A DNA stretch of 64,000 bases. It comes from Candidatus Pelagisphaera phototrophica. GTDB lineage: Bacteria; Verrucomicrobiota; Verrucomicrobiia; Opitutales; Opitutaceae. The stretch spans positions 2,356,001 to 2,420,000 of the forward strand of contig NZ_CP076039.1 in the NCBI RefSeq assembly GCF_014529625.1, read 5' to 3'. A program made the translations under genes and the position numbers. The notes beneath the pieces are model-generated. The model saw nothing but the letters and a program-made list of their open reading frames with translations. It did not search any database and was not told the origin of the DNA. Shown one piece after another: positions 48,784-64,000 of the stretch (its first letter is position 1; the number at the start of each line of letters is the position of its first letter).

Positions 48784-50457
48784 ATGTCGGAACAAGACTT
48801 CACATACATTATCGGCCACAAAAATCCGGATGCAGACTCAATCTGCTCGGCAATCGCTTACGCGAATCTCAAGACCCTCCAAGGGCACAAAGGGTTCATT
48901 CCTGCCCGATGCGGCAACACCAACGCTCGAATTGAAACGATTCTCAATAAGTTCAGCCAGCCTGTGCCCTTATTCATCGGAGACGTTTCCCCGCGAGTTC
49001 GAGACATAATGGTGCGCGACGTGGTCAAAGTACACGAGAACGCTACCCTGTTTGAGGCATTGGAGTTGATCGATGAGTATGACGTCCGAGTGCTTCCAGC
49101 AGTAAACGACGAAGGCAAATTAAAAGGGTTTGTATCCATTTATCAAATGGGTGACTACTTCATTCCGAAATTCAGCGAGCCAAAGGCGATGCGCCAGGTT
49201 CACACGAGCATCAATGACGTTGCGAATGCGCTTCGCGCAGATGTCAAAGTCACTCGAAATCCTGATAGCCTTGAAGACATGTATGTCAAAATCGGTGCTA
49301 TGGACATTCGGTCTTTTGGGAAGTTTACCGGTTCAGACGAGATCCCTGCCAGCGAAACCATTATTATCGTTGGAGATCGTTGGGATATTCAACAGAGGTC
49401 GATTCAAATCGGGGTACGACTTCTCGTAATCACTGGTAGCCTCGGAGTAGACCCAGAAGTAATCGAGCTCGCTCGTGAAAAAGGCGTCTCCCTCATCATC
49501 AGTCCGCTTGACTCTGCAACCACCGCTTGGACGATTCGAACGGCAACTAGAATTTCAAAAATCATAGAGACTCAAATTGTCGTCTTTAGCCCAGACCAAC
49601 TCGTAAAGCAACTCGGCTGGCGGGTGACAAATTCGAACGCCCAAGCATTCATGGTGACCGACGATTCAGAACGTCTGCTGGGGATTTTCAGTAAAACCGA
49701 CATTCTTAAGCCCAAGAAAACCAAGCTCATACTCGTGGATCATAACGAGATGAGCCAAGCAGTTCCGGGTGCAAAGGAAGTAAATATTGTCGAGGTCATC
49801 GACCATCACCGTCTCGGAATCAACACTGCCCAGCCAATTCGCTTTATCAACGATCCCGTAGGGTCAACATGCACAATAATTGCCGAACAGTTTCGCAAGA
49901 GCGACATCGAACCTTCGCCAGAGATCGCGGGTGTCATGATGTCAGGTATCATCTCTGACACGTTGAATCTATCCGGGCCCACCTCCACGAAGCAAGACTC
50001 GGAAGCGATGCAGTGGCTGGAAAACATCGCGGGAGTTACAGCGACAGATCTTGCAACGGAAATCTTCGATAGTGGATCTATCATTCTTACTATGAGTCCT
50101 GAAGAGATAATAAAGGCCGACCAAAAATTCTATGAAGAAAACAGCTTGAAGTTTTCTGTTTCGCAAATTGAAGAACTCGGATTCCAAAACTTCTGGAGCA
50201 GCGAAGATCCATTGATGAACGCTTTGGATCAAGTGGTTAAATCAGAGTCCCTGGATTTCGCCTGCGTTTTGATTACCGACATCAACAAACACAATTCGAT
50301 CTTGATGGTCTCTGGGCCCGACGAATTCGTGAGCAATATTTCCTACCCCAACATTCACGAGGGTCCGATTTTCGATCTCAAAGGAGTCGTGAGCCGGAAG
50401 AAGCAGCTGATTCCGTTTATTACAAGCACTCTAAAAACGATCGCTCCCGTTCGCTAG
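48784..50457 (+). CDS. ppaC: CBS/DRTGG-containing manganese-dependent inorganic pyrophosphatase
   Basis: Family II pyrophosphatase of 557 residues that hydrolyses pyrophosphate. The N-terminal DHH domain starts with YIIGHKNPDADSICSAIAY, the DHH motif is VEVIDHHRLGI, and the DHHA2 domain ends the protein (SRKKQLIPFI). Inserted after about residue 70 are a CBS motif (VRDIMVRDVVKVHENATLFE), a DRTGG domain (ASETIIIVGDRWDIQQRSIQ) and a second CBS. In characterised relatives these bind adenine nucleotides that inhibit or activate the enzyme, so activity here is likely controlled by AMP/ADP and diadenosine polyphosphates. Confidence 0.93.
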   Translation: MSEQDFTYIIGHKNPDADSICSAIAYANLKTLQGHKGFIPARCGNTNARIETILNKFSQPVPLFIGDVSPRVRDIMVRDVVKVHENATLFEALELIDEYDVRVLPAVNDEGKLKGFVSIYQMGDYFIPKFSEPKAMRQVHTSINDVANALRADVKVTRNPDSLEDMYVKIGAMDIRSFGKFTGSDEIPASETIIIVGDRWDIQQRSIQIGVRLLVITGSLGVDPEVIELAREKGVSLIISPLDSATTAWTIRTATRISKIIETQIVVFSPDQLVKQLGWRVTNSNAQAFMVTDDSERLLGIFSKTDILKPKKTKLILVDHNEMSQAVPGAKEVNIVEVIDHHRLGINTAQPIRFINDPVGSTCTIIAEQFRKSDIEPSPEIAGVMMSGIISDTLNLSGPTSTKQDSEAMQWLENIAGVTATDLATEIFDSGSIILTMSPEEIIKADQKFYEENSLKFSVSQIEELGFQNFWSSEDPLMNALDQVVKSESLDFACVLITDINKHNSILMVSGPDEFVSNISYPNIHEGPIFDLKGVVSRKKQLIPFITSTLKTIAPVR

Positions 50458-50463
50458 GGTGTC

Positions 50464-50980
50464 CTATATAATCTCCGCTAATGCCGAATCCACCACAAAC
50501 CGTTCTCCAAATAGGATGAATTCGGTGCGGACACACTTTTTTACCCCCATTATTGATATGAAAAGCTCCTGCCCGAACAGCGACATGGGTATTGTCAATT
50601 TTGACTCGTGACCGAGCTCTTCCAGAGACCCTTTAAACCCATCTCCAACGACATTGGCCAATTCTCCGCAAACGTCGAAAGCCATGTCCGGAACTGAATG
50701 GGCAGTCGCTTCGCTCGTAATCCGAGTCGCGATTTTCTCAATAAGCGACGGATTGAAAAAGAGGTATACCACTCTATTGATCTCTCCTACGAACCCAACC
50801 AACCCACAAACAAACCGCCCTCTGCATCGTCCCCGAACCTGGGAGTCGAAATCTGAGTCTTTGACAAATCTTCAGAACCGGTAAAAAGACCTTTTCGCCA
50901 ACCATCGTCTCGCATACGTTACAAACAGATTTCGCAATCTTGCTTTCGAGAACTTCGTAGCGAATATCCAGCAGACTCAT
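50464..50980 (-). pseudogene. CheX-like chemotaxis phosphatase gene with frameshift
   Basis: The first part, from an ATG at 50980, reads MSLLDIRYEVLESKIAKSVC then NVCETMVGEKVFLPVLKI. The expected continuation is in another frame: KDSDFDSQVRG, LVGFVGEINRVVYLFFNPSL, EKIATRIT, DMAFDVCGELANVVGDGFKG and SLEELGHESKLTIPM, ending at 50464. Joining the two frames near 50875-50885 gives a normal 160-residue CheX/CheC-like protein with the ExxN-type motif in CGELANVV. A single-base indel, or a sequencing error, would explain it. Convergent with the pyrophosphatase gene seven bases away. Confidence 0.65.
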
Positions 50981-51118
50981 TCGATAAACTAAATTTTCAT
51001 GGATAAGCAAGGAGCGAGCGAACTCAAGCCTGAAGAATTTCAATTATATCCGACTGCTCGTTTGCCAGAATCATCTATAAAATAGCAACACGCCTCCCAC
51101 TTCAAATTTACCAATTTC

Positions 51119-51874
51119 ATGCCGCACAACTTTTACGACTCAGACAAAGCAGTATCAGAGTATCTGTTATTTCATTACGGATCCCATTCGGATTTGCTTT
51201 TCGACCAAATGGGACCGCAGGAAGCACTTGGATTCGCTCGCCGAAGCGGACTCTTACATAAGGGTCAATCCATCTATCGGAAACGAGCCCTGGACCTTGG
51301 CTGCGCAGTGGGCGCTGCCTCCCATGCTCTGAGCGAGTCATTCAGTGAAGTAGTTGGAATTGATTTTTCCCACGCCTTGATTCAAGCGGCTAATCGCATT
51401 TCGAGCAGCCGCGAAGCAACCATCGAAATCGCTACGGAAGGCGATCTGACTCGACGTGTTAAGATCTCGGTACCAGACAGCTCTCAACCTGAACGTATCA
51501 CGTTCGCCCAGGGAGACGCAATGAACCTAAACCCTGAGTTAGGGAAGTTCGATTTCATTTTGATGGCCAATTTGATCGACCGCCTTCCCGACCCCCAAAA
51601 GTGTCTTCAGAATATTCACTCTTTCACCGCCGAAAATGGAGTCCTCGCCATAACCTCACCTTACACTTGGCTTGAGGAATATACGCCCAAGTCGAAGTGG
51701 CTCGGTGGCTATGAGGAAAATGGCATCGCTATCAGAACCGCGGATCAGCTAGAGGGAATATTGGCTCCGTATTTCGAGAAGATCGATTCCCAGAACCTTC
51801 CTTTCCTGATACGTGAACACGACAGAAAGAACCAGTATTCGATTGCCCATGCGACCCTTTGGAGAAAATATTAG
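51119..51874 (+). CDS. putative 4-mercaptohistidine N1-methyltransferase (OvoA C-terminal type)
   Basis: SAM-dependent methyltransferase of 251 residues. The start HNFYDSDKAVSEYLLFHYGS and the GPQEALGF segment match the methyltransferase domain that normally forms the C-terminus of OvoA, which makes the last step of ovothiol synthesis. The SAM motif is ALDLGCAVGAASHAL, followed by VVGIDFSHALI and FDFILMANLIDRLPDP. Here it is stand-alone, with no sulfoxide-synthase domain in the window. It is directly followed by a three-gene amino-acid ABC transporter, with eight bases between stop and next start, so the set is probably one operon. Confidence 0.78.
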   Translation: MPHNFYDSDKAVSEYLLFHYGSHSDLLFDQMGPQEALGFARRSGLLHKGQSIYRKRALDLGCAVGAASHALSESFSEVVGIDFSHALIQAANRISSSREATIEIATEGDLTRRVKISVPDSSQPERITFAQGDAMNLNPELGKFDFILMANLIDRLPDPQKCLQNIHSFTAENGVLAITSPYTWLEEYTPKSKWLGGYEENGIAIRTADQLEGILAPYFEKIDSQNLPFLIREHDRKNQYSIAHATLWRKY

Positions 51875-51881
51875 TGGCGTC

Positions 51882-52694
51882 ATGAGGCTCTTCAGTTTTT
51901 TACCCTACCTTCGCAGGATTTCAACCTCCGGCCTAGGCATTGCTTTGATGTTCCTTTCGGGTTGCTCGAAAGAACGCGATGCGCAGATTCTAGTGGTCGG
52001 CATGGAGTTGTCCTATCCGCCGTTTGAAATGACGGATGAAAACAACCAGCCAACGGGTATCAGCGTGGAAATGGCCCGAGCCCTTGCCGATCGACAGGGT
52101 AAGGCTCTGCGTATCGAGAACATTCCTTTTGCAGGTCTTATACCAGCTCTCAAAACCGGTAAAATCGATCTCATCATTTCATCGATGACTCGAACAGAAG
52201 AGCGGGCCCAGTCCATTTCCTTTTCCAACCCCTACTTGCACACTGGGCTGTGTGTTCTTGTATCCCAAAACGGTGATTCCCATACGATCAAGGACATCGA
52301 TCAGCTTGGTGCCAAAGTTGCAGTGAAGCAAGGAACCACCGGACACATTTACGCGAACGCAAATCTTAAGAATGCTGAAATACTGCTTTTCGACAAGGAA
52401 TCCGCTGCTTCTCTAGAAGTAGCCCAAGGCAAAGTTGATGCATTCATCTATGACCAGATCTCTATTTATTTGAACTGGAAAAAGCATTCCGACACAACCC
52501 GTGCCCTCCTCAATCCATTTAACAGCGAATCATGGGCCATAGGCGTTCGGAAAGGAAATGATGAACTCACAACGCAAGTAAATCAATTTCTAGCTGAATA
52601 CCAGGCGAGCGGCGGATTCGACCAACTTGGCGACAAATATTTGTCGGAACAAAAGCGAGAGTTTAAAGAACTCGGATTCCCTTTCTTTTTCTAG
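51882..52694 (+). CDS. amino-acid ABC transporter substrate-binding lipoprotein
   Basis: Solute-binding protein family 3 member of 270 residues. The signal ends in a lipobox, FLSGC, so it is membrane anchored. The binding fold starts with LVVGMELSYPPFEMTDENN, followed by IENIPFAGLIPALKTGKIDL, and the ligand-gripping SSMTRTEERAQSISFSNPY with the conserved TxxR. The start at 51882 lies eight bases after the methyltransferase stop; a frame extending back into that gene is not coding. The ligand is probably a polar amino acid. Confidence 0.88.
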   Translation: MRLFSFLPYLRRISTSGLGIALMFLSGCSKERDAQILVVGMELSYPPFEMTDENNQPTGISVEMARALADRQGKALRIENIPFAGLIPALKTGKIDLIISSMTRTEERAQSISFSNPYLHTGLCVLVSQNGDSHTIKDIDQLGAKVAVKQGTTGHIYANANLKNAEILLFDKESAASLEVAQGKVDAFIYDQISIYLNWKKHSDTTRALLNPFNSESWAIGVRKGNDELTTQVNQFLAEYQASGGFDQLGDKYLSEQKREFKELGFPFFF

Positions 52695-53488
52695 TGTCGT
52701 TCGTCTCATTATTTTTTGGCTCAAGCCACGCGAGCGAAGCGGAAAGCCCTCCCATGTCTCGATGGGTTTCGTTCGGCGGCGCAATTTTGTTTCTCTCCCT
52801 CGTTTTGTACGCCTCGTTTTCCGCTCTAGAATACCAGTGGAACTGGGAATCCGCTCTAAGATACAAGAAGAAGTTCGCTGATGGCTGGATCGCCACTTTG
52901 TGGATATCCGCTCTTTCATTGTTTTTCGCTTTCCTAATCGGCTCTCTGGCCACGTTGTGCAGTCGGGCTCGCTTCTTGCCTGTTCGCTACCTCTCAATGA
53001 TCTATGTAGAACTGACTCGAGGAACGCCTCTTCTTGTGCAGATCTTCTTTTTCTTCTACGTTGTTGCGGATGCCGCTGGCATCCAAAATCGCTATGTAGT
53101 CGGGATTGCCATTATGGCCATATTTAGCGGCGCTTATATTTCAGAGATTCTGAGAGCTGGTGTTGAAGGAGTTGGCAAATCCCAGCTTTTGTCCGCCAAA
53201 GCCATCGGTTTTACTGAGTATCAAACATTTCGTTACGTAATCGTGCCTCAGGCCCTTCGAAGCAGCCTTCCCGCTCTAGCAGGGCAAACGGCAAATTTAA
53301 TCAAAGACTCCTCACTTCTTTCTGTCATCGCCATCAGCGAATTCACTTTGAATGCTCAAGAAGTCAACGCGATCACCTACAGTTCCTTTGAGAGTTTTTT
53401 CCCTTTAGCCATCGGATACCTCATTCTCACCCTACCTATAATGCGGCTATCCCGATCGATTGAAACCAGACTCAGGTTTGAAACATGA
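52694..53488 (+). CDS. amino-acid ABC transporter permease
   Basis: Membrane component of 264 residues with an N-terminal extra helix and the HisM/GlnP-type core. The coupling-helix EAA motif is SAKAIGFTEYQTFRYVIVPQ, preceded by VELTRGTPLLVQIFFFFYV, the hallmark of polar amino-acid permeases. The start is a GTG whose first base is the last base of the binding-protein stop codon. The stop overlaps the ATPase start by four bases, so all three transporter genes are translationally linked. Confidence 0.9.
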   Translation: MSFVSLFFGSSHASEAESPPMSRWVSFGGAILFLSLVLYASFSALEYQWNWESALRYKKKFADGWIATLWISALSLFFAFLIGSLATLCSRARFLPVRYLSMIYVELTRGTPLLVQIFFFFYVVADAAGIQNRYVVGIAIMAIFSGAYISEILRAGVEGVGKSQLLSAKAIGFTEYQTFRYVIVPQALRSSLPALAGQTANLIKDSSLLSVIAISEFTLNAQEVNAITYSSFESFFPLAIGYLILTLPIMRLSRSIETRLRFET

Positions 53489-54216
53489 AACTAGAGCTTG
53501 AATCGGTTGTTAAGACCTACGGAACCCAGCGAGCGCTAGACTCGCTTGACTTGACTATCGAGGACACCATATGTCTCGCCTTGATCGGTCCTTCGGGTGG
53601 TGGGAAATCGACAACACTCCGTTTAATGGCAGGTCTCGAATCGCCCACTTCCGGAACTATTCGAATCGAAGGCAATGAGATAGCCCACGAAGATTGGCAA
53701 CTGCGAGATTATCGCCAAAGAGTTGGGGTTGTCTTTCAAGCCTATAATCTCTTTCCCCACTTCGACGCGATTACAAATATCGCCCTACCCCTTGAAAAGG
53801 TCCATGGATATAGCAGGGGAAAGTCGCTTGAAAAGGCGGGGATGCTTTTGGACCAATTCCAACTAACGGACCATCGATTTAAAAAGCCCGCAGAATTATC
53901 AGGAGGGCAAAACCAACGCGTCGCCATTGCCCGAGCGATCGCGCCCGATCCAGATATCGTATTCCTAGACGAACCGACATCTGCCTTGGATCCCGAAATG
54001 ACGGCCGAAGTCCTAGAAGCGATTGAAACCCTGATTGAGGCGAAAAAAAAACTGGTCATCGCCACCCATCAAATGGGATTTGCCAAACATGCGGCTGACA
54101 CGGTTGCGATCATCGCAGAAGGTAAACTTGTAGAAGTGGGAAATTCCTCCCAAGTAATCGACTCTCCCCGCACTGCTCGTGCACAGAAATTCCTCAAAGC
54201 GTATTTGAAATTCTAA
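53485..54216 (+). CDS. amino-acid ABC transporter ATP-binding protein
   Basis: ATPase of 243 residues, GlnQ/HisP-like. Walker A is GPSGGGKSTTLRLM, Q-loop VVFQAYNLFPH, signature LSGGQNQRVAIARAI (slightly altered from LSGGQQQR), Walker B DIVFLDEPTSALDPEM and the switch His in IATHQMGF. Overlaps the permease gene by four bases. Last gene of the methyltransferase-transporter operon; tolB follows on the opposite strand only three bases away. Confidence 0.92.
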   Translation: MKLELESVVKTYGTQRALDSLDLTIEDTICLALIGPSGGGKSTTLRLMAGLESPTSGTIRIEGNEIAHEDWQLRDYRQRVGVVFQAYNLFPHFDAITNIALPLEKVHGYSRGKSLEKAGMLLDQFQLTDHRFKKPAELSGGQNQRVAIARAIAPDPDIVFLDEPTSALDPEMTAEVLEAIETLIEAKKKLVIATHQMGFAKHAADTVAIIAEGKLVEVGNSSQVIDSPRTARAQKFLKAYLKF

Positions 54217-54219
54217 AAC

Positions 54220-55437
54220 CTATCCCCTTGGTGGAAGGAAACTTGCCTGATTAATCTTCCCTAGCCCAGAAGGAGAGAGAATAGAACGCTTCTTCGTAAC
54301 CGTATCAAACAAAACGATACGTTCATCACTCCCATTTCGCGAGGTGTAAATCAGGTGGCGGCCATCATTAAGCCAACAGGGCTGAATACCATCACCTCGT
54401 TCATTGGTCAGGAATTCGCTTTTTCTCGTGCTGAATCGGTAGGTGGCCACCTGGAACCGATTTCCCACTCCCACGGTAAAGGCAATCAAGTCCGAGTCTG
54501 CATGGTTCCAATCGGGTTCCGCGCAATAACCGCTTATCTGTGTTGGAATATGGCTAAACTGACCTCCCGCAGCGGACCCTCGGTAGAGGGCAAGGCCTCC
54601 ATTACGATCCGACGCAAATATAATCTCTCTACCATCGCGTGACCAACACGGTGTTGCCTCTAGTCCGTTAGAATTCACAACCCGCTTTAGCCCTTTCGCC
54701 AAACTAGAACCCACGTAAATGTCAGCGTTCCCTGGCCCCGTGAGCACCATTGCAAGCCGCGTCCCATCTGGACTATAGCGAGCGCTGGAATTGGTGCCTT
54801 TAAAATCTACCATGACCTCCGAACGCTGTCCACGGATGTCGATCCGCCGAATATTAGGGAATCCGGATAGGTAGCTTGTGTAGACGATGTAATTGCCATC
54901 AGGCGACCATCTCGGGCGGACGGCTTCAACCCCGTGGCTGGTCAGACGCTTCCCTTCTCCGAAAAGAAAGTCTCGATAGTAAATCTCCATTCCCCTGCCT
55001 ACTTCGCCCACATAAGCGATTTTTCCTCCGAAAAAGCCCCGCATGCCACTGGTTTTGTAAATCGCAAGATCAACCGCCCTGAGAACTGAATTCCGACGCG
55101 ATTCCCCTTGAACTTGAGTCGTGTACTGAAGTCGCTCGGGGATGCCTGAGAATATTTTCAAAGTCGAGTGATTCGATCCGACCGGATCCACCTGTATCGC
55201 AAACGATGCTTCCTGCATAGAATTGGCAACTCGGTAGCGACCGTGGATACTAAATGCCGTCTTTAGAATGTTCAGGGCTTCACCATCCTGCGAACGAGTA
55301 ACCACTGGTACAACATCTCGCTGAACATTCACCTCGCCCACACCGATGTCCCTTTGGGCAAAGGCGGCAGGACCGAGAATGAGGGTAGCCGAAAAGGCAA
55401 TTAATCTGATAAGGGTAATCTTGATGCGTTTATTCAT
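54220..55437 (-). CDS. tolB: Tol-Pal system beta-propeller protein TolB
   Basis: Periplasmic protein of 405 residues with a signal peptide (FSATLILGPAAFAQ), an N-terminal alpha/beta domain (DVVPVVTRSQDGEALNILKT) and a C-terminal six-bladed propeller with repeats such as RPRWSPDGNYIVYTSYLSG, ARYSPDGTRLAMVLTG, CWSRDGREIIFASDRNGG and PCWLNDGRHLIYTSR. TolB couples inner-membrane TolQRA to Pal for envelope constriction. The other tol genes are not in this window. Convergent with the ABC ATPase gene. Confidence 0.88.
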   Translation of the reverse strand: MNKRIKITLIRLIAFSATLILGPAAFAQRDIGVGEVNVQRDVVPVVTRSQDGEALNILKTAFSIHGRYRVANSMQEASFAIQVDPVGSNHSTLKIFSGIPERLQYTTQVQGESRRNSVLRAVDLAIYKTSGMRGFFGGKIAYVGEVGRGMEIYYRDFLFGEGKRLTSHGVEAVRPRWSPDGNYIVYTSYLSGFPNIRRIDIRGQRSEVMVDFKGTNSSARYSPDGTRLAMVLTGPGNADIYVGSSLAKGLKRVVNSNGLEATPCWSRDGREIIFASDRNGGLALYRGSAAGGQFSHIPTQISGYCAEPDWNHADSDLIAFTVGVGNRFQVATYRFSTRKSEFLTNERGDGIQPCWLNDGRHLIYTSRNGSDERIVLFDTVTKKRSILSPSGLGKINQASFLPPRG

Positions 55438-55560
55438 TCGCTATAAGCCTGGACTTGACAGATCCTCGAATGTTTCAGGTTTCTAGTGAGCTCTTTCGAT
55501 TAACTGATCGAAAAGTTGTTTTAAAAGGAAAAGCAAATAATCCAAAAACATCAACAAGCT

Positions 55561-56616
55561 GTGAGTAAAGAAGCTATCAAAAACGCCCTAAGCACCGTGA
55601 AGTACCCTGGGTTTAGTCGGGATATCGTATCCTTTGGCCTAGTACGGTCCGTCGATTTCGAAAATGGGAACGCCGTGATTGGCATTTCCGTAACAACTAG
55701 CGATCACAGTGTGGCTGCCCGAATACGCGATGACGTCGAATCCGCCCTTAAAGCGGTTCCTGAGGTCAAAAACGTCGATGTGAACGTGTTGATCTCCCCC
55801 ACGAAAAAGCCCGAGGAAAGCTCTAGTCCAGGCAGAGCCAATCCTGCCGATCTCCCAGGTGTCAAGAATGTCATCGCTGTGGCAAGCGGCAAAGGAGGCG
55901 TGGGAAAATCTACGTTCTCCTCTAACCTAGCCTGCTCCTTGGCAAAACAGCTTTCAGATGAGGGCAAAAAAGTCGGACTGCTGGACTGCGACATCTACGG
56001 ACCCTCCATTCCGTTGATGATGGGGGTGGGTGGCCGACCCGAAATCGAAGACGAGTCAATCATTCCCCTCGAAAGCCACGGAATCAAGGTCATGTCCATG
56101 GGATTTCTTATCGACGAGGATACACCCGTGGTTTGGCGAGGCCCAATGATTCAAAAAACGATCAATCAGTTTATCAACAACGTCAAATGGGGTGACCTGG
56201 AAATTATCGTAGTCGACCTGCCTCCGGGAACCGGCGACGCCCAGCTTTCTCTCGTCCAAACCATACCCCTCAAAGGGGCCATTATCGTAACGACCCCTCA
56301 ACTGGCAGCCACTCAAGTCGCGAAACGCGGGGCTCGGATGCTGGAGAAGACGAATGTACCCCTCCTCGGAGTGGCTGAGAATATGAGCTATCTCGAAGGG
56401 GAAGATGGATCGAGACAGTACATTTTCGGCGAAGGCGGTGGTGAGAAGACGGCGGCGGAACTCGACATTCCTCTTCTTGGCAAGATCCCTCTCAATCCCA
56501 GCATAAGGGAGGCCGGAGACGCGGGTTCGCCCATCTCAGTTTCTAAACCGGATTCCCCGTCGGCCCACGCGTTCGATCTGATCGCAACCGAAATAATGTC
56601 CCAACTGAACAGCTAA
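55561..56616 (+). CDS. mrp: Mrp/NBP35-family iron-sulfur carrier ATPase
   Basis: P-loop ATPase of 351 residues thought to carry iron-sulfur clusters to target proteins. An N-terminal DUF59/MIP18-like domain (about residues 5-85) precedes the ATPase: deviant Walker A VASGKGGVGKSTFSSNLA, switch DCDIYGPSIPLMMG, and PPGTGDAQLSLVQTIPL. WRGPMIQKTINQFI is the usual Mrp segment. A C-terminal CxxC for cluster binding was not seen. The start is a GTG at 55561. Divergent from tolB. Confidence 0.9.
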   Translation: MSKEAIKNALSTVKYPGFSRDIVSFGLVRSVDFENGNAVIGISVTTSDHSVAARIRDDVESALKAVPEVKNVDVNVLISPTKKPEESSSPGRANPADLPGVKNVIAVASGKGGVGKSTFSSNLACSLAKQLSDEGKKVGLLDCDIYGPSIPLMMGVGGRPEIEDESIIPLESHGIKVMSMGFLIDEDTPVVWRGPMIQKTINQFINNVKWGDLEIIVVDLPPGTGDAQLSLVQTIPLKGAIIVTTPQLAATQVAKRGARMLEKTNVPLLGVAENMSYLEGEDGSRQYIFGEGGGEKTAAELDIPLLGKIPLNPSIREAGDAGSPISVSKPDSPSAHAFDLIATEIMSQLNS

Positions 56617-56925
56617 CCTCTGCGGACTAAAAACTCTCGAATTCCGGAAAGTGCTCAGATTTTTGATCATACTTATTTTGGAAAGTCGCACCTCCTAAGT
56701 AGTACAACGCGTTATCAATAGCATTTAGTACTTATTCAGGCCGAAAAATGTTGGTTTCGCGCAAAAACTTCTCATTGACTCTTTGACCGTGCACGCGGAG
56801 CATTACTCAACCCAGCAGGAATATTCAGCCACGAGAACTCCCTCCCAAAATAGTTCAGTGTCGTTAAGATTCTAATCTAAATTCGAAATACGGTTTGAAG
56901 CAGGCCTGAGCAAGCTAGCTAGAAA
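56617..56925. other. intergenic, no gene seen
   Basis: About 310 bp between mrp and a small conserved gene; no RNA gene or clear promoter was recognised. Confidence 0.4.
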
Positions 56926-57159
56926 ATGGCAAAAGAAGATTCTCAACCAGAAGATCAGCACGAATTCGTGAAACGTTCTAGCCTTTACCAAGAGTTTCTC
57001 GCAGAGAGGGAAGAGATCCTGCGGTACAAGTGGCTCGAATCCGAAAGACTTGGGAAGGATATCGGTTTCGAGCGCGCCCTGCTCGACTGGATTCGAAAAT
57101 ATCGAGATGGATGGCGCAATTCGAGGCGGGACCCAGATCACAAGGAATCCTCTGCGTAG
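56926..57159 (+). CDS. small conserved helical protein
   Basis: Charged protein of 77 residues. The core is EFLAEREEILRYKWLESERL then GKDIGFERALLDWIRKYRDG and WRNSRR, a compact pattern I recall from short proteins of unknown function in several phyla, which makes a real gene likely. No signal peptide, membrane segment or metal ligands. The ATG at 56926 lies 24 bases after a GCAGGCCTGAGC stretch without a clear ribosome binding site. It is convergent with rpmG. Function unknown. Confidence 0.6.
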   Translation: MAKEDSQPEDQHEFVKRSSLYQEFLAEREEILRYKWLESERLGKDIGFERALLDWIRKYRDGWRNSRRDPDHKESSA

Positions 57160-57255
57160 CACTACAGTTCTCAAGGAGTCCAAGGGACACCTACACACAA
57201 AAAAGCGACACACTGCCTGTACCGCCTTCTACTATCCTTTGTCGGGGGAGAGAAT

Positions 57256-57423
57256 CTACTTTATTTCCCGGTGAAGCGTATGGCGCTTCAAGTTCTTGTT
57301 GTACTTCTTTTTCTCTACTCGCTCTGTCACCGTCTTCTTATTTCTTGAAGATAGGTAGCGTGAGACGGGCTTACCTTCCGCCTTCGCTTCTGTGCATTCC
57401 AGTGTGATAACTTCGCGTGCCAT
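57256..57423 (-). CDS. rpmG: 50S ribosomal protein L33
   Basis: Ribosomal protein bL33 of 55 residues, part of the large subunit near the E site. The minus-strand frame reads [20 protein letters not shown], then [20 protein letters not shown] and [15 protein letters not shown], the normal L33 layout. Only one Cys is present, so this is the zinc-free (C-minus) form. It lies 100 bp downstream of the diadenylate cyclase fusion gene on the same strand and may share its transcript. Because of its size it is easy to miss. Confidence 0.9.
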
Positions 57424-57525
57424 AATTCGTTCAATTTAAGGATCAGAGGAAGATCTCTACCTAAAAACAAAATGCAACTGAATTTTTTTCGTGCAATCAC
57501 TAAATTTCAAGGGGCTCCTACGATA

Positions 57526-58884
57526 CTAGCCGTCAAACGACTTTTCCATGAGCGGAAGAGCGATCCCGTTTCTGAAAATCGTTACCTGTCCGTTACTGGC
57601 CGATACCACGATAGCGAGGCATTCCGTTGCAACGGAGACCGCGGCAGCTGCCGCATGTCGGGAGCCGAATCCACTTGGGAGCATATGAAGATATTCCGGT
57701 GCGTGAATAAGCGTTCCAGCAGAAATAAGTACTCCATCGCCCCGAATCACGAAAGCGCCATCTAGACCGGAATACTCTTTGACGGTCTCGTCCATGAAAG
57801 GGCTGAGAACATTGCACTCTTCCTCTTTGTAGCCGTAAAAGGGATTCAGAACGAGCGGCTTCGTCAATTCCTCCACCGCTTTGGTGGCCCCGACTACAAA
57901 CAGCGTGCCCACCGTATGGCCTTCCCTACCCTCAACCGACAACTCCATCGCAATGCCGATCACGCGTTCGAGGACTTCCGGCAATATATCGGGGGGGAGG
58001 AAGCTTTCTTGATCTGCGAGCAATGCTCGAAATTCACTACGTAGATCGATTACCACAATCGTATCGAACTGATCGCTTCCGGGGATTCCTCCCACGCAGC
58101 ATATCTTGTCATTCACCCCAATAATTCCTCGAGTGATTCCAACGAGAAATGCGGAACGAGTCTGAGCAAGCCGGCCTTTTGAGAAAGCTCGAACTTGTAT
58201 GATGTTATCGAACGAGGATGCCTCCACTTTCCCCTCCTTGGCCCGCTTCGTCACGAGAATGGACTTAAAGTCGGCGAAACCTTCGTGAGGATTCAATCTA
58301 TCCGAACTCATCACATCTCCAAAAACTGCGATGAAATCACAATTGGCCCCCTTAGCGATTCGCATAGCCTGATTGAATATGAGCTTATTGATCGAACTCT
58401 CACTACGCTTGGCTGCAGTTGCCTGCATTCCGCCAAATCCAAGTAATAGTTCATCGCAGAGCGCATCCAAGTCTGGCGTGCCAACCAAATCATCAATAAA
58501 AGCCTTGTCCTTTACCAAGCGGGCTACGTCCGCGAGGACCTTCAAATAGTTCTGAGTGCTTTCGCCAGCCAGCATGAGGATGATTAAGTGGATCTTCTCC
58601 TCTTTTTTGGGTCCGTCATGGGAGATGCCAACTTTGCAACGGCCGAACGCAAAGACGTAGCGACGCTTCATCTTTATCCGCAAATGAGGCAATGCGACAC
58701 CGTTACCCAAATAAGTCGTCATCGTCGCCTCTCTCCGGAGAAGTCCTGAGAGAAGGTTCTTTTTTCGGCCTAAATCCTTAAAACTAGCATTGCAGGACTT
58801 GATCAGCTCCTTCAAACACCCTTCGAGCGAATCGCTTTCTAGTTCCAATACACGTTTTCGAGAGAAGTATTTGTCTAGTCGCAT
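57526..58884 (-). CDS. PTS EIIA-like / PK_C-like / diadenylate cyclase (DacZ-type) fusion
   Basis: Predicted c-di-AMP synthase of 452 residues. Residues 1-145: PTS EIIA type-2-like domain, with the phosphorylatable His67 in GNGVALPHLRI. Residues ~165-325: pyruvate-kinase C-terminal-like domain (SSINKLIFNQAMRIAKGANC, TVVIDL-type strands). Residues ~330-452: DisA_N diadenylate cyclase with the DGA motif at Asp375 (LDGAFVIRGDGVLISAG) and PSGFGSRHAAAAAVS in place of the usual RHR motif (here RHA, 409-411). The PK_C-DAC arrangement resembles archaeal DacZ. The ATG at 58884 is preferred to one at 58917. Soluble, so EIIA phosphorylation could tie c-di-AMP output to carbon or nitrogen status; that is inference. 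Confidence 0.82.
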   Translation of the reverse strand: MRLDKYFSRKRVLELESDSLEGCLKELIKSCNASFKDLGRKKNLLSGLLRREATMTTYLGNGVALPHLRIKMKRRYVFAFGRCKVGISHDGPKKEEKIHLIILMLAGESTQNYLKVLADVARLVKDKAFIDDLVGTPDLDALCDELLLGFGGMQATAAKRSESSINKLIFNQAMRIAKGANCDFIAVFGDVMSSDRLNPHEGFADFKSILVTKRAKEGKVEASSFDNIIQVRAFSKGRLAQTRSAFLVGITRGIIGVNDKICCVGGIPGSDQFDTIVVIDLRSEFRALLADQESFLPPDILPEVLERVIGIAMELSVEGREGHTVGTLFVVGATKAVEELTKPLVLNPFYGYKEEECNVLSPFMDETVKEYSGLDGAFVIRGDGVLISAGTLIHAPEYLHMLPSGFGSRHAAAAAVSVATECLAIVVSASNGQVTIFRNGIALPLMEKSFDG

Positions 58885-58934
58885 CAAGTAAGGGCGGTTC
58901 AAACCGTTGCGGGGCACTCGCCCCCATTAACTCA

Positions 58935-59309
58935 CTATTTTTCCCAATCGAGTCCGCCCTTTTTGATTTCGTAAAAAAGCCCAACCACCAAAACCGTAAG
59001 GAAAAAAAGTATCGGCCCCAAAATGGGCAGACTGTTGGCGATGAAATCGCGATAAACCAAAACCCAGGGAATCAGGAACAACACTTCTATATCGAAAAGA
59101 ATGAAGAGCATCGCGGTCACATAAAATTTGACCGAGAACCTCGTGCTGGTTTTTCCCTCTGACTTTATCCCGCACTCGTATGCGGAATTTTTAATACTCC
59201 CTTTCGAGCCCCGCTGACCAAATAGATGGCTAGCCGTTAAGATAACGCCCGCAAGCCCCGCTGCGAAAGCGATCTGAACTAATATTGGGGCGAAATCCGA
59301 AACCTCCAT
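58935..59309 (-). CDS. nuoA: NADH-quinone oxidoreductase subunit A
   Basis: Membrane subunit of respiratory complex I, 124 residues with three transmembrane helices. The conserved loop AYECGIKSEGKTSTRFSVKF with its Cys, and LFILFDIEVLFLIPW with the conserved Asp-Glu pair, are diagnostic. nuoB should follow in an ordinary operon, but the next gene on this strand is the diadenylate cyclase fusion, so nuoA is separated from the rest of the complex I genes here. Confidence 0.94.
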   Translation of the reverse strand: MEVSDFAPILVQIAFAAGLAGVILTASHLFGQRGSKGSIKNSAYECGIKSEGKTSTRFSVKFYVTAMLFILFDIEVLFLIPWVLVYRDFIANSLPILGPILFFLTVLVVGLFYEIKKGGLDWEK

Positions 59310-59420
59310 GACAATCGAAAATCCGCAATAAATTTTACAATTTCAAGGTAAAAGAACTCCCAGAACGAATTAAGCCAATTCCTTTCATCTCAAGACACCG
59401 GTCAGGGGGTCCGGAGACGC

Positions 59421-59453
59421 AAAAAAGGCGAGCCCTGTATCGGACTCGCCTTT
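59421..59453 (-). terminator. intrinsic terminator of rpsA
   Basis: On the minus strand a 9-bp perfect stem AAAGGCGAG / CTCGCCTTT with a 12-base loop is followed by a T run, 28 bp beyond the rpsA stop. Confidence 0.9.
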
Positions 59454-59481
59454 GAAAAAGTAGTTAATCGCAGAATACAAT

Positions 59482-61140
59482 CTACTTGGTCGCCTGATCG
59501 AGAATATCTCCGAGGTTCATCAAGTCGCCGCCATCCTTCATATTATCGTAAGTCTGGGTTTCTGCGGCAAGCTGCTCTTCATCGTAATTAGCCGCCTTGA
59601 TGCTTAATCCGATACGACGTTCTTCGCGATCGATCTTGATTACGCGGGCCGTGACCCCGTCACCGATATTTAGCGAGTCCTTGATCTTCTCGATCCGTTC
59701 TTCGCTGATCTGGCTAATGTGAACTAGTCCATCAATATGGTCCTGAAGCTCAACAAACGCCCCAAACGAAGTAATTTTCGAGATCGTTCCTGTAACCACG
59801 TCACCTATACGGAAGCGACCATCAATGTCTGCCCATGGATCATCTGTAAGCTGCTTAACGCCGAGAGAAATACGCTGGTTCGAAGTATCGACATCCAATA
59901 CGATTGCATCGATTTCGTCGCTCTTCTTTAGGACTTCACTTGGATGGTTGATCTTCCGCGTCCAAGACATGTCCGAAACGTGAACCATTCCGTCAATTCC
60001 CTCCTCCAGCTCGATGAACGCGCCGTAGGTAGTAATATTCCGAACCTTGCCATGAACATGGGCGCCCACTGGATAATTGTGAACCACCATATCCCATGGA
60101 TTCGGATCCAACTGGCGAATGCCAAGCGAGATTTTCTCTTCGTCCTTCTGAATTCCAAGAACCACTGCTTCAACATCGTCTCCCACCTTTAGGAGATCGC
60201 TCGGCTTGGTAATGCGTTTTGTCCACGACATTTCTGTTACGTGAACCAGTCCTTCAACCCCTTCTTCGATTTCGATGAACGCACCATAAGGTACCAAATT
60301 GACGACCTTGCCAGCAACGTGAGCCCCAATGGGATAGCGGTTTTCAATGCTGTCCCATGGATTGGACTTAGTCTGTTTAAGACCGAGTGAAACCCGCTCT
60401 TTTTCGCGATTGATTTCGATAATCATCACGTCGATTTCCTCTCCCTGTTTGAGCATTTCGCTCGGATGCGAGATCCGGCCCCAGCTCATATCAGTAATGT
60501 GAAGCAATCCGTCCATTCCATCGAGGTCGATGAAAGCTCCAAAATCAGTGATGTTCTTAACGATACCCTTAACTACGTCGCCCGGGTTGATCTTATCGAG
60601 AAGTTCGCGGCGCTTGGAAGATCGCTGCTCTTCAATTAGTTCACGGCGTGAGAGAACGATGTTCTTTCTCTCTAGGTTGATTTTAAGAACTTTGTAGTCG
60701 TAAGTTTGGCCAAGGTACTGGTCCAAATTCTTAGGAGGCTGTATATCGATATGCGATGCCGGCAAGAATGCGTCCACTCCCATGCCGACGATCAAGCCGC
60801 CCTTAACTTTTCCCTTAACGCGACCTTGGACAATTGAGCCCTCTTCGCATTTAGTAATGATATTCTCCCAATTCTTCTTTTGCTCAGCCTTGTCAAATGA
60901 CAGAATGGGATTTCCATCCCGATCCTCAAGCTTTTCCAGAAAAATCTCAATTTCCTCGCCAATTTGGAGGTCACCGAGATCGGAGAATTCCGATGCAGAA
61001 ATGAGGCCTTCAGATTTACCGCCGATATCGACAACGACTTCGACTTGGCGGATTTCAGTGATCGCACCCTTGATAATAGATCCTTCCTTGAGCTTGTCAA
61101 AGGTGGTCTGGGCGAGAAGTTCTTCCATTATAGAACTCAT
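59482..61140 (-). CDS. rpsA: 30S ribosomal protein S1
   Basis: mRNA-binding ribosomal protein of 552 residues with six S1 (OB-fold) repeats. Later repeats are clearest: VKNITDFGAFIDLDGMDGLL, VVNLVPYGAFIEIEEGVEGL, VRNITTYGAFIELEEGIDGM and ISKITSFGAFVELQDHIDGL, each followed by HxTDMSW or similar. The first two repeats are diverged and bind the ribosome in relatives. The ATG at 61140 was chosen over 61158; another at 61128 (MEELLAQ) is possible. It has its own terminator. Confidence 0.95.
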   Translation of the reverse strand: MSSIMEELLAQTTFDKLKEGSIIKGAITEIRQVEVVVDIGGKSEGLISASEFSDLGDLQIGEEIEIFLEKLEDRDGNPILSFDKAEQKKNWENIITKCEEGSIVQGRVKGKVKGGLIVGMGVDAFLPASHIDIQPPKNLDQYLGQTYDYKVLKINLERKNIVLSRRELIEEQRSSKRRELLDKINPGDVVKGIVKNITDFGAFIDLDGMDGLLHITDMSWGRISHPSEMLKQGEEIDVMIIEINREKERVSLGLKQTKSNPWDSIENRYPIGAHVAGKVVNLVPYGAFIEIEEGVEGLVHVTEMSWTKRITKPSDLLKVGDDVEAVVLGIQKDEEKISLGIRQLDPNPWDMVVHNYPVGAHVHGKVRNITTYGAFIELEEGIDGMVHVSDMSWTRKINHPSEVLKKSDEIDAIVLDVDTSNQRISLGVKQLTDDPWADIDGRFRIGDVVTGTISKITSFGAFVELQDHIDGLVHISQISEERIEKIKDSLNIGDGVTARVIKIDREERRIGLSIKAANYDEEQLAAETQTYDNMKDGGDLMNLGDILDQATK

Positions 61141-61390
61141 GGTACTTGGTGTCAGCAAATCCGAAATTGCTTCCGAAAATCCCAGGTTTCCTGACTAATT
61201 GCGCGTTGCCTATTAGACAACATTGTTAGAATAGCGGTAACTCGTTCGGAAGCGTCGCGGCGGAACGAGCGGTTGATGAAATGCCACAAAGGCCACGGAA
61301 TGTGACCCATTAATTCTCGGGAGCAAGCGAAATCGAGCGTTCTCTCAAACCCGTTTTCAAATCGGATTCTCTCTTCCACACTTCCCTATC

Positions 61391-62275
61391 TCAGTAGACA
61401 ACCTTGTTGAGCGGATATTCAATGATTCCTTCCGCTCCGAGCTCTTTTAGCTTCGGTATGATGTCGCGAACATCCTTTTCACTCAAAATCACCTCGACCG
61501 CGGACCAGCCTTCATCGCTCAAACGGTTAACCGTAGGGTTTCGCAAGGCCGGAAGGATCTTGAGGATGTGCTCCATGCTATCCTTGGGAGCGTTCAGCTT
61601 CAAACCCACCTTATCGGTCGCTTCGAGAGCGGCTTGAAGCATCATCGCGATATTTTCGATTTTTTGCCGCTTTATCGGATTGGCCCAACTCTCCTTGTTG
61701 GCGATCAACTTGGTGTTGGTTTTTAACAAGGTCTCAACGATACGAAGCTTGTTCGCGATCAATGAATTACCCGTCTCCGTCAAATCAACAATAGCGTCTA
61801 CCATGTCGGGTACCTTCACCTCAGTCGCCCCCCAGGAAAATTCGATCTCCGCCTCGACCCCTTTGTCAGCCAGAAACCTGCGAGTCAGATTCACTACTTC
61901 CGTAGCAATACGCTTACATTGCAAATCTCCAACTGTCTTTATGGGCGAGTCTTCTGGAACTGCCAGCACCCAGTAGGAAGGTCGGTTGGATGCCCGACTA
62001 TATACTAAGTCGCAAACTTCCACAACATCAGACCCATTCTCCACGATCCAGTCGTACCCACAAAGACCCACGTCAAAAAATCCGTGATCTACATAGCGGC
62101 TGATCTCCTGGCTTCTAACAAATCGGCCGTCCAATTCAGCGTCGTCGAAGCTCGGCTTATAGGAACGGGAACTCTTTCGGATATTCCAACCCGCTTTCGC
62201 GAATAGCCGAATCGTTGGCTCTTCAAGGCTGCCTTTTGGCAACCCAAACATGAGTATTGGCTCCTCTTTTTGCAC
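61391..62275 (-). CDS. hisG: ATP phosphoribosyltransferase (long form)
   Basis: First enzyme of histidine synthesis, joining ATP and PRPP; about 294 residues, the long form with a C-terminal regulatory domain for histidine feedback. [33 protein letters not shown] and the PRPP loop [16 protein letters not shown] are characteristic. The start is uncertain: GTG at 62275 gives a ten-residue lead like relatives, ATG at 62251 is the alternative, and the frame is open to 62311. A gap of 230 bp separates it from rpsA. Confidence 0.93.
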
Positions 62276-62506
62276 GCAAAAGGTCGAAATCCATACAAGC
62301 CAAAGTCGCAAGCCTAATCTTTTCCTCTTTTATGGCTTTTTTACATTTTTACATTTTACACTGAGTCATTTAGTAATTGTAAATAATTATTGCATCGCTT
62401 CTACGGCTTTTAACAATTACTTCCTCGAACGGATAAATTTTTAATTTTTCCACACAAAGCCACGCTCTCCATTTTTCGCACTACAATCTATTATTAAATT
62501 ACTCCT

Positions 62507-63262
62507 ATGCCTAGTAAACCCAAGCCATTAGTTCTAATCGTAGAAGACGAAGCAGAGCTCGCGAACGTCATTGCGGAACACCTCGAAGCAACAGGGATGC
62601 AAACCCAGATTTGCAATCGATGTGCTCTGGCAATGCGATTTCTGAAAAACAATTTCGCCAACATCATTTTGTTAGACCTTACGCTTCCAGACCAGAACGG
62701 GTTTGCGTTTATGGAAGACTTAAAGTGCGAGGACATCAACATCCCCACCATCTTTCTAACTGGTAATGATTCTGAAATCTCGAAGGTGAAAGGGCTCGAA
62801 CTGGGAGCAGACGATTACGTCACCAAGCCATTTAGCGCGCCGGAACTTGTTGCTCGTATTCATGCCGTACTTCGAAGAGCAGAGGTCGCCAACGACTTCA
62901 ACGTAACGAAGAACGTGAAACTCACTGACTCGCCCTTCATTTTCAATACGGCTTCCATCAATCCCACCACAATGGAAATCTCCTTTACGGACGGAGAAAT
63001 TGTGGCTATCGGCCGCAAGGAAATCGGTATCCTTTCCTACTTCTATGATAATCCCCAAACGATCATCACGCGCAAAAATTTGATACACTCGGTTTGGGGA
63101 ATTCACGCGGACATCCGCAGTCGCTCTCTCGACCAATACATCGTGAAAATCAGAGATCTGTTTAAGCGTAAGGACGTACCCTTGGACAATCTCAAGACTA
63201 TCCACGGAATTGGCTATCAATACGAGCCGCTCAAAGCTGCGAAGGCTCCACTAGTCGATTAG
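62507..63262 (+). CDS. OmpR-family response regulator
   Basis: DNA-binding regulator of 251 residues. The receiver has acidic residues in LIVEDEAELAN, the phospho-acceptor Asp57 in IILLDLTLPDQNG, and Lys in DDYVTKPFSAPELVARIHAV. The C-terminal winged helix contains IGILSYFYDNPQTIITRKNL, SVWG, RSLDQYIVKIRDLF and LKTIHGIGYQYE. No kinase gene is next to it, so the signal input is unknown. It is divergent from hisG with an AT-rich spacer. Confidence 0.93.
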   Translation: MPSKPKPLVLIVEDEAELANVIAEHLEATGMQTQICNRCALAMRFLKNNFANIILLDLTLPDQNGFAFMEDLKCEDINIPTIFLTGNDSEISKVKGLELGADDYVTKPFSAPELVARIHAVLRRAEVANDFNVTKNVKLTDSPFIFNTASINPTTMEISFTDGEIVAIGRKEIGILSYFYDNPQTIITRKNLIHSVWGIHADIRSRSLDQYIVKIRDLFKRKDVPLDNLKTIHGIGYQYEPLKAAKAPLVD

Positions 63263-63323
63263 GCGTCCGCAAAAAACCGCAGTGCTACTCGTGGAGTCAC
63301 ACGGGCAAACACTGTTTGTAGCG

Positions 63324-63545
63324 TCAGATTCTTGATCGGGCAGCAACGCGGTCCATTCCTGTCGCAATTCTGCTGCCCGAAACGGGTTGCCCAACAGGTC
63401 TGCTCGAATCGTTCGTTTCCTTGAGACTGTAGTGAAATCCAGATTCCGACTGATACCCCTCCGGCGACTTTCTAGAGCATACGATCAAAATAACGATTCC
63501 GGCGACTGAAGAAACCGCAAAAATTATCAGTAAGGATACCATCAT
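63324..63545 (-). CDS. possible small membrane protein
   Basis: Frame of 73 residues starting MMVSLLIIFAVSSVAGIVIL, one transmembrane helix, then a polar tail rich in Ser, Arg and Gly. No homology was recognised and the ribosome binding site is weak, so this may or may not be a gene. Confidence 0.35.
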   Translation of the reverse strand: MMVSLLIIFAVSSVAGIVILIVCSRKSPEGYQSESGFHYSLKETNDSSRPVGQPVSGSRIATGMDRVAARSRI

Positions 63546-63590
63546 GTTGAGATCGACCGGTCGGTTCCGTTCTGAAACTTGTATAGGGGC

Positions 63591-63725
63591 ATGTTACAAA
63601 AATACTTGGTAAACGGCAATGGCTCCTACTTGGAGGCTCGTTACAACGCTGTAACATGGGATACACGCAAGATCATCAAAATCAATCTGAGACAGATCGT
63701 TTCGGTAAATGTAACCAAATATTGA
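63591..63725 (+). CDS. possible 44-residue protein
   Basis: Short frame starting MLQKYLVNGNGSYLEARYNA with GGGG three bases before its ATG. The composition looks protein-like, and the start resembles the strand pattern of small domains that occur as C-terminal repeats, but no family was recognised. Could be a fragment. Confidence 0.25.
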   Translation: MLQKYLVNGNGSYLEARYNAVTWDTRKIIKINLRQIVSVNVTKY

Positions 63726-63871
63726 CAAACCACACGTAATGCTGCCCATACCGAATAGGGTAGGACTTAGGTAACGGACCGCCTTTTAATGCCGAAGCCC
63801 TTGGAAGGCGCCCACTATATTCAGATGAAAGGCAACCTGTAGCTCCCTCCGACAGGCCTCAAACTTCAGCC

Positions 63872-64000
63872 TTAACGAAGCCGATAGTACTGATCTGGAT
63901 TGTACAAATAGTAAAAATCGAATGGCTCAAGCCGAGGAAGGGCCATAAACGGTTTGCCCTCCTCATCAAGACTTTCCTCCAGAGTGCCTTCGGCAAAAAT
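63872..64000 (-). CDS. 3' end of an unidentified gene cut by the window edge
   Basis: The last 42 codons of a minus-strand gene: GTLEESLDEEGKPFMALPRL, then EPFDFYYLYNPDQYYRLR and TAA at 63872-63874. The acidic, aromatic-rich sequence is clearly coding-like, and the frame is open to the right edge. Family not recognised. Confidence 0.5.
   Translation of the reverse strand: MFAEGTLEESLDEEGKPFMALPRLEPFDFYYLYNPDQYYRLR

Follow-up and report, generated by a model that had tools for sequence, protein, structure and literature searches.

How diadenylate cyclases (DACs) sense the state of the cell is, to our knowledge, an open question for most of their classes. It is raised in a concrete form by one gene in the 64,000-nucleotide stretch of Candidatus Pelagisphaera phototrophica DNA analysed here (the window; the host genome is a single contig of 4.09 Mb), the product of which joins an EIIA domain to a DAC domain. 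Its input would come through a phosphotransfer domain of a well-understood type, and the donors for such a module, EI and HPr, are encoded in the same genome. The reading that we favour, with moderate confidence, is that this EIIA-DAC protein is a c-di-AMP synthase of Opitutales whose activity or assembly is changed by phosphorylation of His67 via EI and HPr, with c-di-AMP restraining K+ uptake.

The original prediction placed a 452-residue protein at this locus, and the frame is found with that length and position on the minus strand (Table 1). An alternative longer frame starts with GTG at 58917 and encodes 463 residues; Met1 of the 452-residue form is invariant in the 62 rows of alignment A1, which comprises the window protein and 61 of the 65 homologue rows, the window's own copy, two near-identical rows and one cut row having been left out. 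Homologues that align over the full length, at identities down to about 39% within the order, rule out chance. All six named near relatives derive from metagenome assemblies, under the labels Opitutales, Opitutaceae, Opitutae or Verrucomicrobiia; two share 97% identity in the EIIA-DAC protein. In the class sample, seven members of a second family, f25, carry the full protein at 37–39% identity. The stop codon of nuoA lies 17 bases before the GTG start of the cyclase gene and 50 before the ATG. A NuoA-like frame precedes the cyclase gene, in the same orientation, at 56 of the 64 loci counted (one contig-cut locus was left out) and at 56 of the 57 outside f25; seven of the eight loci that lack it are the f25 loci. 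A search of window positions 50000–64000 against Rfam returned no match.

Table 1 Features of the EIIA-DAC locus in window coordinates
Feature	Position	Strand	Basis or remark
EIIA-DAC gene (very probably DacD-type)	57526..58884	(-)	452 aa, ATG at 58884, stop at 57526-57528
nuoA (NADH dehydrogenase subunit A)	58935..59309	(-)	Pfam Oxidored_q4, E 4e-30; upstream of the cyclase gene
EIIA domain (PTS type 2, PtsN-like), residues 1-150	58435..58884	(-)	Pfam PTS_EIIA_2, PtsN fold
Middle domain, PK_C fold (Pfam DacZ_P), residues about 160-297	57994..58407	(-)	Pfam PF21755, fold match
DAC (DisA_N) domain, residues about 300-448	57541..57987	(-)	Pfam DAC, DAC fold
DGA motif, residues 375-377	57754..57762	(-)	Asp and Gly in 88/88 rows
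RHA motif (RHR in CdaA/DisA), residues 409-411	57652..57660	(-)	Arg and His in 88/88 rows
His67 codon, putative phospho-acceptor by homology to PtsN	58684..58686	(-)	Aligned with the His of PtsN chains

Pfam analysis of the 463-residue frame (residue numbers throughout refer to the 452-residue form) gave three matches above the cut-offs: PTS_EIIA_2 (E 6.1e-19, 68.9 bits, cut-off 27), DacZ_P (PF21755; E 2.4e-9, 37.4 bits, cut-off 27.4) and DAC (PF02457; E 1.2e-17, 64.1 bits, cut-off 27). In the AlphaFold2 model built from A1, the EIIA part matches PtsN (3urr_A; Z 19.6, rmsd 2.1, 148 aligned) and the DAC part matches 2fb5_A (Z 16.6), DisA (9y9y_C, Z 16.3) and CdaA (8c4n_B, Z 15.7). The middle domain, modelled alone (pLDDT 78.9), finds pyruvate kinases in all 50 matches listed (best 5ws9_A; Z 13.8, rmsd 3.4, 127 aligned), and Foldseek agrees on pyruvate kinase (best E 2.4e-5). 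The three-part composition first read from the DNA (EIIA, a PK_C-like domain and DAC) thus stands on both kinds of comparison, including the significant EIIA and DAC matches that the original prediction had called for; its PK_C-like part holds as a fold and not as a sequence family, for which Pfam lists DacZ_P and not PK_C. The histidine that had been described as intact is His67, which aligns with the PtsN histidine. With a mean pLDDT of 82 and a pTM of 0.59, the domains of the full model are predicted fairly well and their mutual placement, including that of His67 relative to the cyclase site, is left unsettled.

The protein very probably belongs to a class already named in print, DacD. Representatives of DacD given in PMC6741144 come from Lacunisphaera limnophila, Puniceicoccaceae, Coraliomargarita, and Verrucomicrobia and Opitutae bacteria. 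Lacunisphaera belongs to Opitutaceae, Opitutales, and we take the EIIA-DAC protein as DacD because the taxa of the representatives lie in or near the group in which it is the usual sole DAC. The class reportedly goes back to Corrigan & Grundling 2013, and it may be defined by an EIIA (PTS) domain. We found no experimental study of the EIIA-DAC protein among the papers listed by literature searches that scarcely covered subscription papers, and the main text of a 2026 review of PTS-Ntr contains neither "c-di-AMP" nor "diadenylate" (PMC13104625); this is a known kind of protein, the regulation of which is apparently unstudied.

The link to archaeal DacZ that the original prediction had drawn is borne out. 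DacZ/DacY (CdaZ) likewise carries a PK_C-fold domain N-terminal to DAC, and EIIA-DAC and DacZ branch together away from CdaA with a split of 100/100, in a tree of 45 rows (two DacZ, no DisA) that leaves the internal order on the DacZ side open and places the long rows, L169 and DacZ, unsurely. The best NCBIfam match is NF041371 (E 1.1e-28), the haloarchaeal DacZ equivalog, for which the 100.3 bits obtained lie far below the cut-off of 430. In contrast to archaeal DacZ, the window protein has an EIIA domain, and Pfam lists no DACZ_N in it. The name DacZ_P is no proof of archaeal kinship, since this Pfam family had no match in any of 14 control genomes, which comprised archaea as well. With CdaA/DacA and DisA, the protein shares the DAC fold, the DGA motif, the Arg-His pair and the Ser, whereas Pfam lists neither the CdaA_N membrane part nor the DisA C-terminal part, RHA replaces RHR, no His precedes DGA, and the SEE of CdaA is SxS. 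Scores fall below the cut-offs of the CdaA (TIGR00159; 26.2 against 188.8 bits), DisA (PRK13482; 25.7 against 201) and PtsN (39 against 138.7) equivalogs. With PtsN (EIIA-Ntr) it has in common the EIIA fold, the phospho-His and a proposed connection with the control of K+; unlike PtsN, it is fused to a cyclase.

The departure from the canonical RHR motif had raised doubt about whether the cyclase is active. Residues were counted in an alignment of 91 rows, obtained after dropping rows with identical last 280 residues and including three contig-cut EIIA pieces, one archaeal DacZ and two pieces from G047, where the gene is split over two contigs. Asp375, Gly376, Arg409, His410 and Ser428 are invariant in the 88 rows that cover the DAC part (one archaeal). 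Position 411 is Ala in 71 of these rows, Glu in seven, Ser in four, Thr in two, Val, His, Asn and Leu in one each, and Arg in none. Neither of the two haloarchaeal DacZ examined has Arg there either, their motifs being RHH and SES. RHR was found in all of the 30 best-scoring other DAC loci of the phylum sample, a set that is biased toward canonical motifs by its choice as the top scores of the search; these loci have CdaA-like motifs (HDG, RHR, mostly SEE) and were called CdaA from HDG, RHR and frame length, with CdaA_N tested for L001 only. Two residues are candidate stand-ins for the absent second Arg, judging from the alignment: Lys369, conserved in 86 of 87 rows (the other one has Arg) and in both DacZ, where at least 31 of the 33 CdaA rows have Phe, Tyr or Asp instead; and Arg438, which is Arg in 78 of 87 rows and Lys in both DacZ. 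Neither could be located near ATP, and no role is claimed for them.

In the published passages seen, losses of activity concern the whole motif or its first Arg, not the last Arg alone: changing all three residues to AAA abolishes activity of M. tuberculosis DisA (PMC3328451), whole-motif replacement has the same effect in PMC4568413, and activity is lost on change of the first Arg in PMC12974146. H. volcanii DacZ is reported to be active with Mn2+ only (PMC6741144). As far as the alignment tells, RHx lacking the second Arg marks the entire DacD/DacZ branch that was sampled and is no private defect of the window protein. The doubt is thereby largely answered, and the genomic context, considered below, favours an active enzyme. 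Seen across this branch, the textbook RHR motif can apparently do without its second Arg.

A match to the EIIA-DAC protein was found in 52 of 57 genomes (its own included). DAC is present in 50 of the 57, and all of these 50 carry the EIIA-DAC gene; from the genomic places of protein matches and DAC-family matches, the EIIA-DAC protein is the only DAC above the cut-off in 47 of them. A second such DAC, of the CdaA type, occurs only in the own genome (G000), G005 and G006, and an additional match in G033 is below the cut-off. Among near-complete genomes of the order, neither the EIIA-DAC protein nor a DAC was found in G053 and G054, and no DAC was found in G285; thus, c-di-AMP does not seem to be needed everywhere in Opitutales. 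In the phylum samples, DacZ_P was matched in 39 of 240 genomes and DAC in 223 of 230, and three genomes of other families (G210, G297 and G262) have both kinds of DAC. The EIIA-DAC protein appears to have replaced CdaA in Opitutales. A protein with the PK_C-fold and DAC parts and no matched EIIA is encoded in G262 (L166), and G308 has a second gene of this composition (L169) besides that for the full EIIA-DAC protein.

The c-di-AMP riboswitch RF00379 (Rfam) was detected in eight of the 57 genomes by a search with stricter filters, which can miss riboswitches, and was not found in the own genome or its 10 congeners. Seven of the eight have no DAC besides the EIIA-DAC protein; G052, the remaining one, is 50% complete, and no DAC was found in it. 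Behind the riboswitch, the first large frame on its strand encodes Kup in one genome (G013), AA_permease_2 in four (G026, G034, G031 and G052) and Band_7 in three (G035, G011 and G024). The permease gene of G031 is followed by KdpA and E1-E2 ATPase genes, and the Band_7 gene of G035 by those for AA_permease_2, KdpA and E1-E2 ATPase. Among PDB chains, the two permeases compared out of the four (G031, E 9.7e-65; G034, E 6.1e-61) match only KimA. Altogether, genes of K+-transporter type (Kup, KimA-like, Kdp) lie behind the riboswitch in five of the seven sole-DAC genomes. Such riboswitches control kimA and kdp, the expression of which is lowered by c-di-AMP in Bacillus, and their occurrence before K+ transporters was predicted earlier, Verrucomicrobia included (PMC6488665). 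That an RNA sensing this messenger occurs where only one DAC exists is good indirect evidence for activity of that DAC, and the EIIA-DAC protein is most likely an active c-di-AMP synthase. A Band_7/SPFH gene lies directly behind the riboswitch in three Opitutaceae-level relatives (L156, L221 and L222), and Band_7 stands alone there in G011 and G024.

The EIIA side of the fusion is well conserved too. His is kept at position 67 in 84 of 87 rows, and Gly62, Pro66 and Arg69 in all 65 homologue rows. In a sample of 80 of the 93 genomes listed (several incomplete ones are among the 13 excluded), the N-terminal domain of EI was found in 78 and HPr in 77. The own genome encodes an EI with GGKTSH and an HPr with GIHARPA, the active-site motifs expected of these proteins. 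No type-2 EIIA besides the EIIA-DAC protein was found in 25 of the 57 genomes, among them all 11 genus members; in G047, this only EIIA is a piece of the split gene. HPr was not found in G044, nor EI in G047.

Two readings would deny the EIIA-DAC protein its role as the principal c-di-AMP synthase. That its DAC domain is catalytically dead and binds ATP or c-di-AMP as a receptor or regulator might be argued from the missing second Arg, the SxS in place of SEE and the published inactivation of other DACs by loss of the whole RHR motif. We regard this as highly improbable: a dead domain would leave 47 of the 50 DAC-bearing genomes with no other DAC above the cut-off, seven of them with c-di-AMP riboswitches, the Asp, Gly, Arg, His and Ser never vary, and RHH and SES are the motifs of two haloarchaeal DacZ, a family with a member reported to be active in H. 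volcanii. The second reading is confined to the host genus, where an added CdaA would be the main synthase and the EIIA-DAC protein minor or specialised. The second DAC of the own genome (L001:1012-2214, at G000:C1 about 1029000) is a CdaA_N-DAC protein of 400 residues, with a long C-terminal extension that contains a hydrophobic stretch and looks CdaR/YbbR-like by eye, with no Pfam match there; CdaA-like DACs are encoded in 402-residue frames in G000, G005 and G006, CdaA_N having been confirmed by Pfam for that of G000. These CdaA-like DACs themselves read RHA, and the genus CdaA pair sits on a long stem of 2.42 changes per column in the tree. Moreover, CdaA was found in three of the 11 genomes of the genus, of which some are fragmented, against 11 of 11 for the EIIA-DAC gene, whole or cut at a contig end. 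A leading role of CdaA in the genus is therefore unlikely, if somewhat less so than a dead cyclase.

A third reading accepts an active c-di-AMP synthase and takes the EIIA domain as a docking or assembly module, comparable to PtsN in its binding of TrkA or KdpD, with phosphorylation mattering little or not at all. The His has given way to Ser in G288 and G311 and to Tyr in G039, a loss in two lineages, and each of these genomes retains the full protein, EI and HPr; conversely, G042 (0.9 Mb, 93% complete) keeps His67, and neither EI nor HPr was found in it. A joint loss of His67 and EI/HPr was thus not seen, which counts against the phosphorelay, and the PK_C-fold and DAC proteins of G262 and G308 with no matched EIIA also fit the docking reading. 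Against docking alone speak the near-constancy of His67 and its neighbours, the almost universal finding of EI and HPr, and the dependence of PtsN action on its phosphorylation (PMC9239096). PtsN regulates K+ transport in Proteobacteria, and the phosphorylation state that is active varies by species (PMC13104625, PMC9239096). Weighing both sides, we consider a purely docking EIIA a minority possibility, and phosphorelay control of the cyclase plausible. G288 and G311 (L170 and L171) provide natural His-less EIIA-DAC proteins, in which the region around position 67 has drifted.

Under phosphorelay control, the idea that the original prediction had raised, phosphate from PEP would pass through EI and HPr to His67 of the EIIA domain, and the phosphorylation state of this domain would alter the activity or the assembly of the cyclase. 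The DAC domains of two chains would meet head to head and convert two ATP to c-di-AMP, with catalysis by DGA, the Arg-His pair and Ser428 and no need, in the DacD/DacZ branch, for the second Arg of RHR. The PK_C-fold domain may act as a core that links the parts or senses a ligand, a role already proposed for archaeal DacZ/CdaZ. The c-di-AMP produced would hold down K+ uptake, in some relatives partly via the riboswitches before kimA-like, kup and kdp genes. We infer that c-di-AMP is made and that His67 is phosphorylated; any sign and size ascribed to the effect would be inferred likewise. The most economical reading of the sequences is that a PtsN-like domain tunes c-di-AMP synthesis within one protein.

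If this holds, the PEP/pyruvate state would set c-di-AMP and thereby K+ uptake, which would connect two systems of K+ control, each so far studied in a phylum of its own. As a broader and more tentative proposal, the PtsN-type phosphorelay and c-di-AMP, which elsewhere are separate K+ regulators, may have merged in Opitutales in the replacement of CdaA, and in the genus may form a PEP-to-c-di-AMP switch that gene order links with respiration through nuoA. Such a direct switch is suggested for the genus by the fact that the only type-2 EIIA found there for EI and HPr is the c-di-AMP synthase itself. Apparent EI-HPr fusions, each in one frame of 825–903 residues, occur beside separate proteins in G016, G087, G096, G105, G173 and G308.
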